Source: Terrabacter sp. MAHUQ-38
Lineage (GTDB): Bacteria; Actinomycetota; Actinomycetes; Actinomycetales; Dermatophilaceae
Direction: 5' to 3'
Assembly: GCF_014518425.1 (NCBI RefSeq)
Contig: NZ_JACVCU010000002.1
Location: 1 to 64,000 of the forward strand
DNA length: 64,000 nt
This document shows, piece after piece, positions 10,152 through 20,627 of this stretch. Each line of letters starts with the position of its first letter. The first letter of the stretch is position 1. The notes under the pieces are model-generated. The model had not been told where the DNA came from and did no database searches. It saw nothing but the letters and a program-made list of their open reading frames with translations. The position numbers and the translations under genes were made by a program.

Positions 10152-10199
10152 GTTGGCGGGCCGCGCCACGCGTTTGACGGCTGACCCGCCCGCGTGCCA

Positions 10200-10400
10200 C
10201 GGTTCGCTTAACCGAAGGACGACGGGGCAAGCCGGTGAGACTCCGGCGCTGACCCGCAACCGTGATGCCGCCCTCCGTCGCCGTGAGGCCCGGGGTGACC
10301 AGCCGGAAAACCCGCGTCCTCCCGGCTCCCCTGTCAGTCTGTCGTGGAATGCGGACCGGAGTCACCAGCCGGGCCGGCTCCAGACCCGACACGGTGTCCG
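10200..10400 (+). promoter_or_regulatory. Cobalamin (B12) riboswitch
   Basis: The conserved aptamer core is visible: GGGGCAAGCCGGTGAGACTC at about 10224-10243, continuing into GGCGCTGACCCGCAACCGTG to about 10265, which matches the AdoCbl-riboswitch block. The B12 box is AGCCGGAAAACCCGCG at 10301-10316. The downstream stretch to the ribosome binding site has a GC-rich AGCCGGGCCGGCT pairing that could serve as the expression platform. It sits in front of a corrinoid transport and salvage operon, so B12 should switch that operon off. Ends are approximate. Confidence 0.9.
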
Positions 10401-14752: not shown

Positions 14753-15339
14753 GGGCAGTGGCCCGCACCACGACCCTCGTGACAGGCCCCGTGCGCAGCG
14801 GCAAGAGTCGTCACGCCGAGGACCTCCTGGGGGATAGCCACTCGGTCACCTACGTCGCGACCGGGCGCCGGGCCGACCCGAGTGACCCCGAGTGGAGCCG
14901 CCGCGTCGCGAGCCACCAGGTCCGCCGACCGGAGTCGTGGCGCACGGTCGAGACCGTCGACGTGGCGGGGGTCGTCGACGCCGCGACCGGCCCGGTGCTC
15001 GTCGACTGCCTCGGCACCTGGCTCACGGCTGTCGTGGACGAAACCGGCTGGGACGACCTCGTCGCGGCTGCCACCACGGTTCGTGACGCCAGCGCGCTGC
15101 TCATCGAGTCCCTCTGTGCCGCGTGCGTACCCGTCGTCGTCGTGACCAACGAGGTCGGCTGGTCCCTCGTCCCCACCACGGCATCGGGGCGGTTCTTCCA
15201 GGACGAGCTCGGTCGCCTCAATGCCGCGGTGGCGGCGGTGGCAGCCCACGTCCACCTGGTCGTGGCGGGTCGGGTCCTCGACCTCAGCAGCGCCCCGGTC
15301 GTGCCCCTCGAGCCGCGGCCCGGGACGCTCGATGCGTGA
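14749..15339 (+). CDS. cobU: Adenosylcobinamide kinase/adenosylcobinamide-phosphate guanylyltransferase
   Basis: A 196-residue bifunctional enzyme that phosphorylates and then guanylylates adenosylcobinamide in nucleotide-loop assembly. The P-loop is GPVRSGKS, then YVATGR, SHQVRRPESW (the catalytic His region), VDCLGTWLT, VVVVTNEVGWSLVP and FFQDELGRLNA follow in family order. ATG at 14749 overlaps the EcfS stop. The 3' end overlaps cobS by 8 nt. It supports salvage of imported cobinamide. Confidence 0.93.
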   Translation: MRAVARTTTLVTGPVRSGKSRHAEDLLGDSHSVTYVATGRRADPSDPEWSRRVASHQVRRPESWRTVETVDVAGVVDAATGPVLVDCLGTWLTAVVDETGWDDLVAAATTVRDASALLIESLCAACVPVVVVTNEVGWSLVPTTASGRFFQDELGRLNAAVAAVAAHVHLVVAGRVLDLSSAPVVPLEPRPGTLDA

Positions 15340-16114
15340 CGCGTGGCGGCTCGCCGTCGGGACCTTCACTGCGCTTCGCACCCCTCCCCCTCGACACGTC
15401 GACGACCGCGTGCTGGGGCGCGCCATGCTGCTCGCCCCCGTCACCGCCCTCCCGGCCGCTCTCGTGTGGGCCGTGCTCGGTGTCCTCGTGGGCGCCGGCC
15501 TCGTGCCACCTCTCGTGGCCGCCGTCCTCGCCGTGCTCACCACGGCCCTCGTGTCACGAGCCCTGCACCTCGACGGGCTGGCCGACCTTGCCGACGGGCT
15601 GACGTCCGGCCACGACCCGACACGGTCGCTGGAGGTCATGCGTCGTGGCGACACCGGCCCGGCCGGTGCGGCAGCCCTCGTGCTCGTGCTGCTGCTCGAG
15701 GTCGCATGCCTCGCCTCCCTGCTCGGGTCGCCGACCGGCATCGCGCTCACGATCGCCGCCCTCGTCGCGAGCCGGCTGGCGTGCGCGGTGTGCGCGCGGG
15801 ACGGCATACCCCCGGCGCGCGCGGAGGGCCTGGGTCAGGGAGTCGCCGGCACGGTGTCGCGGCCGCATCTCGTGGGCCTCGTCGCCGCGGTCGTCGTCGT
15901 GGCCGGTGCCGTGGGGATCCTCTTCCTCGGTGGTCCGTCCGCGGCCCTCGGCCTCGCGGCCGTCGTCGTCGCAGCGGTCGCCTCGGCGGTCGTCGCGCGC
16001 CGGCACGCGGTGCGACGCCTGGGAGGTGTCACGGGCGACGTCATCGGCGCGGCCATCGAGGTCTCGCTCGCCGTGGCACTCGTCGCCGCTTCGGTCATCG
16101 CGTCACTCGGCTGA
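15332..16114 (+). CDS. cobS: Adenosylcobinamide-GDP ribazoletransferase (cobalamin synthase)
   Basis: An integral membrane enzyme of 260 residues that joins adenosylcobinamide-GDP to alpha-ribazole. The active-site loop HLDGLADLADGL lies near residue 73, and MRRGDTGPAGAAAL follows; both are family signatures with the metal-binding Asp residues. About six to seven helices. ATG at 15332 lies inside the end of cobU. It is the last gene of the riboswitch operon; the next gene is convergent. cobT (lower-ligand activation) is absent from the window. Confidence 0.93.
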   Translation: MRDAWRLAVGTFTALRTPPPRHVDDRVLGRAMLLAPVTALPAALVWAVLGVLVGAGLVPPLVAAVLAVLTTALVSRALHLDGLADLADGLTSGHDPTRSLEVMRRGDTGPAGAAALVLVLLLEVACLASLLGSPTGIALTIAALVASRLACAVCARDGIPPARAEGLGQGVAGTVSRPHLVGLVAAVVVVAGAVGILFLGGPSAALGLAAVVVAAVASAVVARRHAVRRLGGVTGDVIGAAIEVSLAVALVAASVIASLG

Positions 16115-16164: not shown

Positions 16165-16950
16165 TCAGCCACGCAGGCGGGCGGCCAGCGGCTTCGGCAG
16201 TCGGCTGCGCCAGTCGGAGCGTGGGGCCTCGCGCCGGGTGTCGGCGATGCGTTCGACGCGGGCCCGCTCGACCGACCCGGAGCGGAGGGTGGGCCACGCC
16301 TCCTCGCGGCCGGTGGCGCGGGCCAGCACGAGGTCGGCGAGCTCGGGGTTCAACGCGAGGAGCGGACCGTGCAGCCGAGTGCCCATCACGGAGCCGGCCA
16401 GAACGCCCTCCGCTACGGCGCCGTCGGCCTCCTGCGTCCGGTTGCCGGCTCCGATCTCGAGCCTGAACAGCGGCCGGGCGCCGTCCTCGCGCACCGTGCG
16501 CAGGTCGTTGGCCTCCCAGCCGACCAGGGCCGGCAGGTCGAGCGAGGGGTCAGGGTGAGTCACGACCGTGCCCGTCGACTCGGACGCCGGGTGCACCGTG
16601 ACGGGGACGAGACCGAGACCCTCGTGTCGGGAGCCTGACGCGTCGACCCACGTGCGGGCGACGGCGTCGAGGCCGGCATCGACGGCGAAGAGCACCGCGC
16701 CGTCCGCGACGCGAGCCGCGAGGTCGGTCGACGCCAGGGCCTCGACGAGCGCTCCCACTCCCCCTCGACCGGTGCCGCCGACGAGGTACACGTCGGCCTC
16801 CACGAAGGAGTCGGCGCGGTCGACCGTGAGGGTCTCGACCGTGAGGTCACGCGCGGCCCCGCGACGCACGAGCGCAGCGGCGTTCGCCTCGTCGGCCGCC
16901 GCGACCGTCGCCAGGGGGAAGAGCGTCGCGACCGTGAGTGCCCGGCTCAA
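16165..16950 (-). CDS. GatD-like glutamine amidotransferase homologue lacking the catalytic cysteine
   Basis: A 261-residue homologue of GatD, the glutaminase half of lipid II isoglutaminyl synthase. The C-terminal landmark GSVMGTRLHGPLLALNPEL matches the GatD His-containing segment, and LVGWEANDLRT matches its LVGFENH region. However, where GatD has the nucleophile Cys (CGGYQ; Cys94 in S. aureus) this protein reads FAVDAGLDAVA, with Asp91, and the whole chain contains no cysteine. The GGGQD oxyanion loop reads VGGTGRGG. Start is the TTG at 16950, overlapping the MurT-like stop (TTGA). It cannot hydrolyse glutamine by the known mechanism; a structural or regulatory partner is inferred. Confidence 0.75.
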   Translation of the reverse strand: MSRALTVATLFPLATVAAADEANAAALVRRGAARDLTVETLTVDRADSFVEADVYLVGGTGRGGVGALVEALASTDLAARVADGAVLFAVDAGLDAVARTWVDASGSRHEGLGLVPVTVHPASESTGTVVTHPDPSLDLPALVGWEANDLRTVREDGARPLFRLEIGAGNRTQEADGAVAEGVLAGSVMGTRLHGPLLALNPELADLVLARATGREEAWPTLRSGSVERARVERIADTRREAPRSDWRSRLPKPLAARLRG

Positions 16951-18194
16951 CGGGTGCCTCCTCGGAGGTGCTTGGAGATGCGTCGGAACGCCGGGTAGTT
17001 GCACGCGACGATCACCTCGCCGGACGCGTGCCGGCGTAGCGCCGACTCGAGGTCCGGCGCCTCGACGACGTCGGCGCCGAAGGACTCGAGGATCGCGACG
17101 GCGTCCGCCGTGCGACCGCCCGTGACGGCCACCCGCTGACCCGCGAGGCGCTCGAACGGCGCCTCCCACATCGTCGCCGTGTCCTTCGGTCCGAACGGGT
17201 CGACGGCGACGACGAGCGGCCGGTCCGTCGAGACGACGACGTCGATCGCCTCCGCCCACCCGGCGGGGTTCTTCAGCATGAGCAGGCGCGCGGAGTGGTC
17301 GCCGACCCGGTACGGCGCGTAGCGGCCGTCGACGTCGGCGACGGCGCTGACGCGCTCGGCCGCCGTGTCGACGTCGACCCCGAGCGCGTCCGCGGCGGCC
17401 AGTGCGAAGGCTCCCCCGACCGGGCCCGTCCGCCCGGGCACGGTGACCTCGATGCGCGTGCGGGCACCCGCGTGCTCGACGGCCCAGCCGTCACCGTCGG
17501 GGACGACCTTCCAGTCGGGTTCGGGCCGGGATCGCCGGCACCCGGGGCAGCTCCACGAGTCGTCAGAGAAGTCCTGCACGGTCCCGCACGCCGGGCAGAT
17601 GAGCGCGTCGCCGCGCCAGTAGAGGCCTCCGCTGACGCCGACCCGCCGCGGCGCCGTCTCGAACGCCCAGCTGACGAGGGGGTCGTCGACGTTGACGATG
17701 GCCACGCAGTCCTCGGGCAAGCCGGCCGCCGTGCGACGCCAGTGCTCGAGCGTGCTCTTCAGGGAGACACCTCGCGTGTACTCGCGCGAGCTGTTGAGCA
17801 CGACGACGGCCTTGGGTCGCGTGCCGCGCGCCACCGGCTCGAGGTAGACCTCGTCGACCTCAAGGGCTGCGAGCGGCGACACACGGTCGCTCGAGAGCGC
17901 GGTGACGATGCCGTCGGTCATGTTGGCGCCGGTCGTGTTGCTGACGACCGCGCCGCCGGGCGAGATCGCCGCAGCGACGAGCGCCGTCACGGTGCTCTTG
18001 CCGTTGGTGCCGGTGACGAGAACGCTGCGGCGGTCACCCCCCACCGCACGCAGCACCTGTGGGTCGACCCGCAGGGCCAGCCGGCCTCCGATCATCGAAC
18101 CCGAACCCTTGCCCAGGGCTTGCGAGAGCCGTCCCGCCAGCCGTCCCGTGGCCAGCGCCAGGCGGGCACGGAGCGGATCGCGTGCGTCAGTCAA
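16947..18194 (-). CDS. MurT-like Mur ligase domain protein
   Basis: A 415-residue relative of MurT, the ATP-dependent synthetase half of the lipid II amidating complex. The ATP loop is VTGTNGKSTVTALV, the MurT zinc ribbon is intact (CPACG ... CPGCRRSRP), and LLMLKNPAGWAEA is the family motif before the C-terminal DUF1727 domain. In that domain the usual SWxWDVxFE reads TMWEAPFERL, so the Asp that MurT lends to the amidotransferase triad (Asp349 in S. aureus) is Glu344. Start appears to be a TTG at 18194 with GAAGGG upstream. Coupled by TTGA to the cysteine-less GatD-like gene. A second, canonical pair may exist elsewhere. Confidence 0.78.
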   Translation of the reverse strand: MTDARDPLRARLALATGRLAGRLSQALGKGSGSMIGGRLALRVDPQVLRAVGGDRRSVLVTGTNGKSTVTALVAAAISPGGAVVSNTTGANMTDGIVTALSSDRVSPLAALEVDEVYLEPVARGTRPKAVVVLNSSREYTRGVSLKSTLEHWRRTAAGLPEDCVAIVNVDDPLVSWAFETAPRRVGVSGGLYWRGDALICPACGTVQDFSDDSWSCPGCRRSRPEPDWKVVPDGDGWAVEHAGARTRIEVTVPGRTGPVGGAFALAAADALGVDVDTAAERVSAVADVDGRYAPYRVGDHSARLLMLKNPAGWAEAIDVVVSTDRPLVVAVDPFGPKDTATMWEAPFERLAGQRVAVTGGRTADAVAILESFGADVVEAPDLESALRRHASGEVIVACNYPAFRRISKHLRGGTR

Positions 18195-18335
18195 AACGGG
18201 TTACCCTTCTCGACGTCGTGGCCGGGCCGAGGCCGCCTGCGTCGGGCGACCGCTCGATGACATGCCAGATCGATCAGCCAGATGCTATCCGCAGCACCGG
18301 CCCCGCCGGCCCGCGGGGGACGAGGAGGAGACCGC

Positions 18336-19469
18336 GTGCGAGCCGCCGATGTCGGGATCGAGATCGGGACCGGCTGCTCGGGTCCACTCAACGCCATCAC
18401 CGACGTGGAGGGGGTTCGCGTCGGGTACAGCACGATCGTCCACGGCGAGGGTGACCTCCTGGTCGGGCAGGGTCCCGTCCGCACCGGCGTCACCGTCATC
18501 CGGCCCCACGGCGGACGTGCGTCGACCGAGCCCGTGTTCGCCGGCTACCACCGGCTCAACGGCTTCGGCGAGCTGACCGGCCTCGAGTGGCTCCACGAGT
18601 CGGGCATGCTCTCGAGCCCCATCGCGCTGACCAACACCGACAGCGTCGGCATCGTGCGCGACTCGCTCATCGCCCGCGAGACCCGGCTCCCGGGCCGGAT
18701 GCCGATCATGCTCCCGGTCGTCGGCGAGACGTGGGACGGCATCCTCAACGACATCAGCGGCCAGCACGTGACCCGGGAGCACGTGTACGCCGCCTTCGAC
18801 GACGCGCGCACGGGCCCCGTCGCGGAGGGCAACGTCGGCGGTGGCACCGGCACGCAGTGCTACGGCTTCAAGGGCGGCACGGGCACGGCGTCCCGCGTCG
18901 TCGACCTCGGCCACCGGCACTTCACGATCGGCGTCCTCGTCCAGGCCAACCACGGCGACCGCAAGCACTTCGAGGTCAACGGCGTGCCCGTCGGGCACGT
19001 CCTGACGAAGAAGGCCGTGCCGTTCCCGCGCATGTCCGAGATCACCCGCGTGCCGCCACCGGGCACGGGCTCGGTGCTCGCCGTCGTCGCGACGGACGCG
19101 CCCCTGCTGCCTCACCAGCTCAACCGTCTCGCCCAGCGCGCCGGTCTCGGCATCGCGAAGTTCGGCGCCCGTGGCGACAACTACTCCGGCGACCTCATGA
19201 TCGCCTTCTCCACCGCCGCGCACGGCATGCCCGACCAGGGTCCAGGTGCCCGAACACAGATCGGCATGCAGGTCGAGATGCTCGCGCTCGAGTACTTCGA
19301 CGCCCTGTTCGGCGCTGTCATCGAGGCGACCGCGGAGGCGATCCTCAACGCCATGCTCCAGGCCGAGACGATGACCGGCCGCGACGGCCTGACGGTCCAC
19401 GCCCTCGACGGCGAGCGGCTCGCCGCGCTCCTCGACCGCCACGGCCGCCGCCGCTTCGCCCTGCACTAG
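18336..19469 (+). CDS. P1 family (DmpA-type) self-processing peptidase
   Basis: A 377-residue N-terminal-nucleophile aminopeptidase of family S58. The expected autocleavage site is Gly245-Ser246 within GTGSVLAVVATDAPL, making Ser246 the nucleophile of the small beta chain. NTDSVGIVRD and EGNVGGGTGTQCYGFKGG are other family blocks. YSGDLMIAFST near residue 283 completes the site. GTG at 18336 has GGAGGAG 7 nt upstream. No signal peptide, so cytoplasmic. It is divergent from the MurT-like gene, with 141 bp between starts. Substrate specificity (D-aminopeptidase, beta-peptidyl or general) cannot be told. Confidence 0.85.
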   Translation: MRAADVGIEIGTGCSGPLNAITDVEGVRVGYSTIVHGEGDLLVGQGPVRTGVTVIRPHGGRASTEPVFAGYHRLNGFGELTGLEWLHESGMLSSPIALTNTDSVGIVRDSLIARETRLPGRMPIMLPVVGETWDGILNDISGQHVTREHVYAAFDDARTGPVAEGNVGGGTGTQCYGFKGGTGTASRVVDLGHRHFTIGVLVQANHGDRKHFEVNGVPVGHVLTKKAVPFPRMSEITRVPPPGTGSVLAVVATDAPLLPHQLNRLAQRAGLGIAKFGARGDNYSGDLMIAFSTAAHGMPDQGPGARTQIGMQVEMLALEYFDALFGAVIEATAEAILNAMLQAETMTGRDGLTVHALDGERLAALLDRHGRRRFALH

Positions 19470-19495: not shown

Positions 19496-20614
19496 TCAGG
19501 ACTCGCGGACCTGCACCTGCACGAACGGCGGCTTGACGACCGTCGCCTCCACCGCACGACCGCGCACGTCGACCGTCACCGTCTCGCCGTCGGCGATCTC
19601 GGGGGTGAGCAGGGCGAGCGCGATGCCCTGCCTGAGCGTCGGCGAGAAGGTGCCCGACGTCACCTCGCCGGCGGCCGAACCGTTCCACGACACCGTGCAG
19701 TGCGGCCGCGGGATGCCGCGACCGGTCACGAGCAGGCCCCGCATGAGCCGGGTCGGGTTGGCCCGCTCGGCCTCGAGGGCGGCCTTGCCCCAGAAGGTCT
19801 CCTTCTTCCAGCCGACGGCCCAACCGGCGCGGGCCTGGACAGGCGAGATCTCGAGCGAGAGGTCCTGGCCGTGCAGCGGGTAGCCCATCTCGGTGCGCAA
19901 CGTGTCGCGCGCGCCGAGGCCACACGGCATACCCCCGAAGGTCTCGAGCGAGGCGACCAGCGCGTCCCACAGGGCCGGCGTGTCGTCCCAGCGCGGCACG
20001 AGCTCGTAGCCTCGCTCGCCGGTGTAGCCCGTGCGGCAGACGATGACCGCCCGCCCCTGCCAGTCGGCCTCGACGAAGGACATGTACTCGTGCCCGGTCG
20101 GGAGGCCCAGCGAGTCGAGCAGCTCGTCGCTCTTCGTTCCCTGCACGGCGATGACGCCGTGGTCACGGTGCAGGTTCGTCACCGTGATGCCTTCGGGCGC
20201 GGCGGCCTCGAGACGGCGCACGACCTCAGCGGTGTTGGCGGCGTTGGGAATGAGGAACACGTCGTCGTCGGACTTGAGGTAGACGATGAGGTCGTCGACG
20301 ACCCCGCCCGCATCGTCGCAGCACAAGGTGTACTGCGCCGAGCCCGGTTGGATGCGCCGGACGTCGTTGGTGAGGCACGCGTTGACGAAGTCAGCGGCGC
20401 CCGGTCCCGTCACGGACGCCTTGCCGAGGTGGCTCACGTCGAAGATCCCGACGCGCTCGCGCACCGCGGTGTGCTCGGCGACGACGCCTCCGCCCGGGTA
20501 CTCGATCGGCATGTCCCAACCGCCGAAGTCGGCCATCTTGGCTCCGAGGGCGACGTGGCGGTCATGGAGCGGGGAGGTGAGCGGGGAGGTCGTCCCCGAC
20601 GTCGCTGTCGTCAT
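19496..20614 (-). CDS. gcvT: Glycine cleavage system T protein (aminomethyltransferase)
   Basis: Transfers the methylene group of glycine to tetrahydrofolate, releasing ammonia. The 372-residue chain has the T-protein blocks [52 protein letters not shown] and [20 protein letters not shown]. The ATG at 20614 is preferred over an upstream TTG, because TAGGTT lies 7 nt before it (leaderless). Other glycine-cleavage genes are not in the window, but the E3 subunit lpdA is 3 kb away. The gcvT-pepA divergent order is conserved in actinobacteria. Confidence 0.95.
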
Positions 20615-20621
20615 GGGCGCC

Positions 20622-20627
20622 AACCTA
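20622..20627 (-). promoter_or_regulatory. -10 box of gcvT, leaderless
   Basis: TAGGTT on the minus strand, 7 nt before the ATG at 20614. Confidence 0.6.

Follow-up and report, generated by a model that had tools for sequence, protein, structure and literature searches.

In the first 64,000 nt of contig NZ_JACVCU010000002.1 from Terrabacter sp. MAHUQ-38 (assembly GCF_014518425.1), a stretch referred to here as a whole as the window, two overlapping genes encode homologues of the two subunits of the MurT/GatD isoglutaminyl synthase. The two halves of MurT/GatD are tightly coupled, and the enzyme, which several pathogens cannot do without, has attracted study as a drug target. In the pair found in the window, the nucleophile Cys of the GatD subunit is replaced by Asp, and we refer to this Cys-less form and its relatives as MurT' and GatD'. 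The elements of the pair are the following:

16165..16950, minus strand: gatD-like gene, 261 amino acids (aa), class I amidotransferase family
16678-16680, minus strand: Asp91 of the GatD-like protein, codon GAT, at the place of the Cys nucleophile
16369-16371, minus strand: His194 of the GatD-like protein, the triad His, kept
16947..18194, minus strand: murT-like gene, 415 aa, Mur ligase with kept ATP-site residues and a four-Cys (Cys4) ribbon
17163-17165, minus strand: Glu344 of the MurT-like protein, codon GAG, replacing the triad Asp
E138-Y139-T140 of the MurT-like protein: gate loop, altered relative to canonical MurT
16947..16950, minus strand: TTGA overlap of the murT stop (TGA) and the gatD start (TTG)

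Searches against solved structures matched the MurT-like protein to MurT of S. pneumoniae and S. aureus (best match, 5e-26) and the GatD-like protein to GatD of S. aureus (7e-13). When aligned to S. aureus GatD, Asp91 corresponds to Cys94 and His194 to His189, and in the alignment to solved MurT, Glu344 falls on the Asp of IWDADFE. The GatD-like protein does not contain a single Cys in its 261 aa, carries VGGTGRGG at the place of GGG(E/Q)D and retains TRLHGPLL; its partner carries the TGTNGKS loop, the CPAC...CPGC ribbon and the MWEAPFE motif that includes Glu344. The features described in the initial annotation were thus confirmed at their coordinates, the alignment to solved MurT supporting the position of Glu344 at the triad Asp, and the TTGA coupling, read from 16950 to 16947, is real. 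The pair did not reach the NCBIfam equivalog cut-offs (91.7 out of 800 bits for MurT; 46.1 out of 450 and 34.8 out of 400 bits for GatD) and the MurT-like protein stayed below that of Pfam MurT_C (21.2 vs 25 bits), GATase_3 (42.8 vs 27 bits) and Mur_ligase_M (24.8 vs 24 bits) being the Pfam families above cut-off. AlphaFold models based on nine-row alignments were poor (predicted local distance difference test, pLDDT, of 52 for MurT' and 48 for GatD'), and no statement made here is built on them.

Cys-less pairs were found in 11 genomes, nine of the host family and two of one other family (f32). In the search of 186 genomes of the host family, nine, including that of MAHUQ-38, contained a MurT of at least 64% identity, after which, in every case, comes a GatD with the Cys-to-Asp change. 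A set of ten related loci comprised eight from Terrabacter, Terracoccus sp. 273MFTsu3.1, Humibacillus xanthopallidus, Intrasporangium oryzae and an Intrasporangiaceae bacterium, which correspond to eight of the genomes counted here and are not additional ones, and two weak matches in metagenome-assembled genomes of Bacteroidota. The search of 394 genomes of the class yielded two more pairs, both in f32 and with a MurT of ~61% identity; the four f32 genomes searched comprise these two, one carrying a decayed fragment and one without the pair. From 396 genomes sampled across the order, 29 passed 1e-60, and three of them, all of the host family, were of the Cys-less kind (>750 bits), the rest scoring 219-298 bits. 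Among 396 genomes sampled across the phylum, the genome of MAHUQ-38 alone passed an E-value of 1e-100, and the viral contigs searched contained no relative. The Cys-less pair is thus rare in the genome samples searched.

All canonical relatives inspected had the Cys. A Cys codon, either TGC or TGT, was present in the GatD motif of the 48 canonical loci from the family (21) and class (27) searches, and the order search added 17 out of 17 loci with GatD in the fetched DNA (18 loci were looked at, L135 having no GatD there), which makes 65 out of 65 overall. The initial annotation had considered that, if most homologues have Cys, the Asp would represent a sequencing error or a single-strain mutation. 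The first half of this statement is literally true, and the second does not follow from it because the Cys-less form is a conserved clade. Maximum-likelihood trees were calculated with 44 rows, namely the 11 clade members, 27 canonical rows of the class and 6 out of the 21 canonical rows of the family. In both the MurT and the GatD tree, a branch supported at 100/100 separates the 11 Cys-less pairs, whose stems are long, from all other rows, so that the tree proposed in the initial annotation as a check for such a clade did recover it. The tree program warned of meeting long branches in both cases, and within the clade the MurT tree did not resolve how I. oryzae, f32 and the remainder branch.

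We then compared individual sites between the 11 clade rows and 33 canonical rows (the 27 of the class and the 6 of the family). The 11 clade rows carry Asp at the GatD Cys position and Glu at the MurT triad Asp, versus Cys and Asp in all 33 canonical rows. Within the clade these codons vary synonymously, Asp being encoded by GAT or GAC and Glu by GAG or GAA. Because the change from Cys to Asp requires at least two base substitutions and has been retained, a sequencing slip is excluded. The initial annotation had considered all three residues of the triad to be changed, which does not hold for His194. How many of the three are changed depends on the paper followed. According to PMC6113224, the triad consists of GatD C94, GatD H189 and MurT D349, C94S or C94G abolish activity and D349N abolishes or severely reduces it. 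PMC6085368, in turn, proposes GatD Asp32 as the third triad residue and reports that MurT D355A merely lowered activity. The MurT Asp is Glu in 11/11 clade rows and the GatD Asp (Asp20, equivalent to S. pneumoniae Asp32) is kept in 11/11, as are His194 and the HGP motif; hence two residues are changed under the first assignment and the Cys alone under the second.

Changes extend to the positions that handle glutamine, whose roles are discussed in PMC6085368, as is a gate loop where the ammonia path opens. In all 11 clade rows, the third oxyanion Gly of GatD is Thr or Asp, the two residues after it have changed from E/Q-D to G-R or G-L, and the Gln of the CxxxQ motif is Asp or Ala. The N of the ENH loop is gone in 11/11 rows and the H in 10/11, and the Arg that captures glutamine (R128 in S. 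aureus, R142 in S. pneumoniae) is Glu in eight rows, including the window protein, Pro in one, Gly in one and Arg in one row from f32. On the MurT' side, the gate loop has one residue fewer and its Q-(L/M)-D has become E-Y-T in 11/11 rows, both Arg being kept. As regards ATP and Mg, the P-loop K66, E112, D114, R291, N309 and P310 are present in 11/11 rows and K308 in 10/11; the four ribbon Cys are also found in 11/11. To judge from these residues, the glutamine side is mostly dismantled and rebuilt in a consistent manner and the ATP side is largely intact, which supports the proposal of the initial annotation that the pair would have lost the glutaminase and kept the ligase half. As a separate observation on the ribbon, the four Cys are present in the Cys-less clade and in the 27 class rows (one of which is without one Cys) and absent from canonical MurT of the host family (6/6 rows tabulated of 21).

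Selection was estimated as the pairwise Nei-Gojobori ratio of non-synonymous to synonymous substitution rates (dN/dS) in five pairs of Terrabacter/Humibacillus loci. Values were 0.06-0.18 for murT' and 0.15-0.30 for gatD', and three genes used as yardsticks gave 0.06-0.15 (gcvT), 0.09-0.22 (pepA) and 0.27-0.34 (cobS). Thus, murT' is comparable to gcvT and pepA, gatD' lies between pepA and cobS, and the pair is under purifying selection. Three pocket segments of GatD', picked after inspection of the alignment, contain 24 invariant positions out of 35 compared to 58 out of 195 elsewhere, and part of this invariance may reflect the subunit interface and not catalysis. Random decay, against which the initial annotation had argued, and sequencing error are ruled out by the clade of 11 members, the 100/100 support in both trees, the dN/dS values and the synonymous changes at the Asp and Glu codons.

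Next to the pair lie a third gene, transcribed away from murT, and the two genes that flank the insertion site:

18282..19469, plus strand: gene for an S58 aminopeptidase (DmpA/BapA-type), which completes the cassette and is divergent from murT; the start codon is uncertain, at 18282 or slightly downstream
15221..16114, plus strand: cobS, left flank of the insertion site, outside the cassette
19496..20623, minus strand: gcvT, right flank of the insertion site, outside the cassette

The S58 assignment rests on a Pfam score of 372 bits (cut-off, 23.9), NCBIfam giving no match for this protein, and its solved relatives are the D-aminopeptidase 5tzb, the DmpA-type enzyme 1b65 and beta-peptidyl aminopeptidases. 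The protein keeps the Gly-Ser processing context (GS-VLAVVATDA), for which the S58 cleavage reported in PMC9570944 served as the comparison, as well as NHG and SGD, and its dN/dS is 0.02-0.12. An S58 gene of at least 90% identity lies beside murT in eight of the nine pair-positive genomes of the host family. Among the other 177 genomes of the family, seven contained an S58 match passing 1e-60, the best one with 57% identity, and G170 and G177, of the same genus as MAHUQ-38, gave no match at 1e-20. In f32, genome G209 contains S58, murT and gatD in this order on one strand, its S58 protein being 75-76% identical to that of the window, and in G245 the contig begins at murT, so that the S58 neighbourhood falls outside it.

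The site occupied by the cassette in Terrabacter and Humibacillus lies between cobS and gcvT. Six genomes were tried for an empty site, and in four of them (G170, G177, G041 and G017), two of which belong to the same genus as the window, cobS and gcvT are direct neighbours without any insert; in the other two, cobS gave no match (G043) or gcvT was outside the fetched flank (G178). Its presence in two families indicates transfer. Taken together, the locus is an accessory three-gene module that has been gained, lost and transferred. The initial annotation had mentioned neither the S58 gene nor the empty site, nor that the locus is accessory and transferable.

The initial annotation had also suggested that the pair might regulate a canonical MurT/GatD in the same cell and that a second, canonical pair should be looked for in the genome. 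No other MurT was found in the genome of MAHUQ-38 by single-sequence search (E-value up to 1) or by profile, and such a regulation is not supported. Besides the window gene (4.3e-274), the single-sequence search for MurT gave a weak Mur ligase match (0.35), and the profile gave one match. The GATase_3 profile reported five other places in this genome and did not report the window gene, for which reason this search proves nothing alone. These five places were considered as GatD candidates and discarded: according to Pfam they are SNO-type, GATase_5/class I-type or CobB/CobQ-type, with at most partial matches of 27-40% to canonical GatD. The other eight clade genomes of the family gave one MurT match each by single-sequence search; since this kind of search missed 10 canonical MurT elsewhere, the absence of a second MurT is less sure for them.

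Many genomes of the family showed no MurT. The first, single-sequence search found none in 61 of the 186 genomes, and a mixed profile, scoring up to 30 candidates per genome, then revealed MurT in 10 of these 61 (one of them partial), leaving 51 genomes without MurT. These 51 showed nothing beyond ordinary Mur ligases and 43 of them are at least 90% complete; the number may be low because the weak matches in G014 and G121 may be ordinary Mur ligases. This contrasts with PMC6085368, where the MurT/GatD operon is described as universally present in Actinobacteria. At the other extreme, several class-search genomes of f24, f11, f33 and f44 (e.g. G239, G333 and G440) matched the MurT profile two or three times, which may reflect paralogues or interrupted genes.

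To our knowledge, no gene has been assigned to the addition of glycine or other amino acids to the D-Glu carboxyl in actinobacterial walls. ATP-dependent addition of glycine to lipid II was reportedly described in Micrococcus (Katz, 1967). Within the host family, Intrasporangium calvum is reported to have an A3gamma wall in which LL-diaminopimelic acid (LL-DAP) and a triglycine bridge occur and the alpha-carboxyl of D-Glu bears a glycine (PMC3035309). Neither the single sequence nor the mixed profile found a MurT in I. calvum (G041), a genome in which GatD was not searched. The wall type of cassette-positive Terrabacter was not found among the literature matches listed or in the portion of PMC6113628 covered. 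A family search for FemAB (PF02388) revealed one match type in genera g1, g8, g9, g17-g20, g26 and g51, amounting to 20 genomes, nine of which have the Cys-less pair, 11 no MurT found and none a canonical one. Genera g33 and g46 have similar FemAB matches (that of G085 is better than the weakest of the 20), and their inclusion results in 24 genomes, nine with the Cys-less pair, 13 with none found and two with canonical MurT (G084 and G086). This group is our own cut, includes the incomplete genomes G016 (58%) and G051 (81%), and no test rests on it.

How could these findings be explained? The reading that we favour, and to which we give about even chances, is that the locus encodes a functional ATP-dependent amide ligase of the Mur type, whose partner has been rebuilt and is no glutaminase and which uses an amine other than the ammonia of glutamine, and that the S58 peptidase acts on the same amide or amine. 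MurT', given its conserved residues, would bind ATP and activate a carboxylate as an acyl phosphate. GatD' would be unable to make ammonia from glutamine, so that the amide would be formed with another amine, and would be kept as a structural partner. The rebuilt pocket, consisting of Asp91, His194 and MurT' Glu344, would no longer fit glutamine and may hold another amine or an acceptor. The amine would most likely be an amino acid or a small peptide amine and the carboxylate one of peptidoglycan type or similar. To judge from its linkage to the pair, the S58 enzyme, its solved relatives being aminopeptidases by name, might remove or supply this same amine, and its presence would point to an N-terminal aminoacyl amide as either the product or the source of the amine. 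Several observations weigh against this explanation. In the P-loop, the Thr that follows the Lys has become Ser in 10/11 clade rows and Ala in 1/11. The clade has two residues fewer in the stretch that precedes the triad Asp, which reads (A/P)DG(R/T)D in most canonical rows and which we equate with the part that PMC6113224 links to muropeptide binding, so that even lipid II is unsure as the acceptor. gatD' evolves faster than murT' and, in the comparison with I. oryzae, both genes show a dN/dS of ~0.35 at a dS of ~0.8. The pair of I. oryzae has no adjoining S58 gene, its 57% identical S58 lying on another contig. Finally, the decayed copy in f32 genome G228 (L115, 6381-6871) consists of a murT' piece followed directly by a gatD' piece, with stops in frame and much of the sequence absent, and this copy together with the cassette-negative Terrabacter indicates that the cassette is dispensable.

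One alternative retains the canonical reaction. The pair would amidate the D-glutamate of lipid II with ammonia taken from the cytosol or released from an S58-cut amide, GatD' acting as a mere scaffold. It has been reported that S. aureus MurT together with the inactive GatD C94G can draw on free ammonia to amidate lipid II at pH 8.5 and that GatD appears to be still required (PMC3266927); therefore, a GatD without activity can persist in the role of a scaffold. The lack of any other MurT found in the genome of MAHUQ-38 and the presence of named D-aminopeptidases among the solved S58 relatives also fit such an amidase. However, the rebuilding of the gate loop and of the stretch before the triad Asp is not obviously required for ammonia and, as it accompanies that of the pocket, favours a different amine over mere free ammonia; moreover, I. 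calvum carries glycine and not ammonia at the D-Glu carboxyl (PMC3035309). We regard this alternative as unlikely. If the amine were glycine or another amino acid, the pair could be the ligase for the alpha-carboxyl of peptidoglycan D-Glu, as substituted in I. calvum (PMC3035309), and the fact that all nine pair-positive genomes of the family fall within one FemAB match type would agree with this. Yet no MurT was found in I. calvum itself (where GatD was not searched), so its glycine must be added by another agent, and none was found in 11 of the 20 genomes of the FemAB group; we therefore consider a glycine ligase decidedly unlikely.

As a further alternative, Asp91, His194 and Glu344, each present in 11/11 clade rows with synonymous changes at the Asp and Glu codons, might form an Asp-His-Glu centre at the intact nucleophile elbow A-V-D-A-G, Asp acting as the nucleophile and Glu344 of MurT' as the acid, that is, a hydrolase of new chemistry in an amidotransferase fold. 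Asp nucleophiles at such elbows occur in alpha/beta hydrolases. Nevertheless, the third oxyanion glycine is gone, three invariant sites are weak proof in proteins whose far ends are still 45-60% identical, and there is no usable structure (GatD' pLDDT, 48), and we consider such a hydrolase very improbable. A broader proposal is that the amidotransferase subunit has turned into an amine-donor (or catalytic) subunit with a two-chain Asp-His-Glu centre, which would hand an amino acid or other amine instead of ammonia to the MurT acyl phosphate, S58 editing the product, within an unrecognised accessory system for tailoring of the wall or of a metabolite; we would consider this rather improbable. 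Conversely, both subunits might be catalytically dead and the pair a regulator or binding protein, as two changed triad residues and the decayed copy in one f32 genome could suggest. The conservation of the ATP and Mg residues in 11/11 or 10/11 rows and the lack of a canonical MurT found in the genome of MAHUQ-38 that could be regulated stand against a dead pair, for which we see little chance.

On sequence grounds, the locus is best filed as a MurT/GatD variant coupled to an S58 peptidase and not as a MurT/GatD isoglutaminyl synthase. With the synthase of S. aureus, S. pneumoniae and mycobacteria, it shares homology of both subunits, gene order and overlap, the P-loop Lys, the Mg Glu, the Cys4 ribbon, the GatD His and Asp20. 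It differs in the loss of the GatD Cys, the glutamine-capturing Arg and the third oxyanion Gly, in the change of the MurT Asp to Glu, in the altered gate loop and stretch before the triad Asp, in its S58 partner and accessory site, and in missing the equivalog cut-offs. MurT-like ligases without GatD have been reported in archaea (Methanopyrales and Methanobacteriales; PMC11915815). They resemble MurT' in that a ligase of the MurT family manages without a glutaminase, but genomes with only those ligases have no GatD, whereas in the window the gatD-like gene has been kept and overlaps murT. Compared with DmpA/BapA (PDB 1b65, 3n2w and 5tzb), the S58 protein shares the Pfam S58 family, the Gly-Ser context, NHG and SGD, and its gene differs in lying beside a Mur-type ligase pair. 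In addition, ETWDG is found where 1b65 and 5tzb have ETYDG, as in 9/9 close members of the cassette S58 (the window, L067-L072, L074 and L113; in L117 this stretch gave no match, and the count does not cover L119 and L120). Among the open-access literature matches listed, no title or opening of an abstract had a Cys-less MurT/GatD as its subject.

A natural clade with the glutaminase half off and the ligase half kept would show what role GatD plays besides ammonia production, and it could bring to light a ligase by which a group different from ammonia is attached to the D-Glu carboxyl or to another carboxylate. I. calvum, with glycine and no MurT found, together with cassette-plus and cassette-minus Terrabacter, makes this question directly testable. 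As for minor features, the three cassette proteins gave no match in the PADLOC search for defence systems, the scan for promoters and terminators detected no promoter-like site and one terminator-like site versus 0.6 expected, and the search for repeats at the cassette edges gave one imperfect 23-nt pair near the cobS side and nothing convincing. Elsewhere in the window, a cobalamin riboswitch is located at 10183-10321, upstream of ABC/ECF transporter and cobU/cobS genes.

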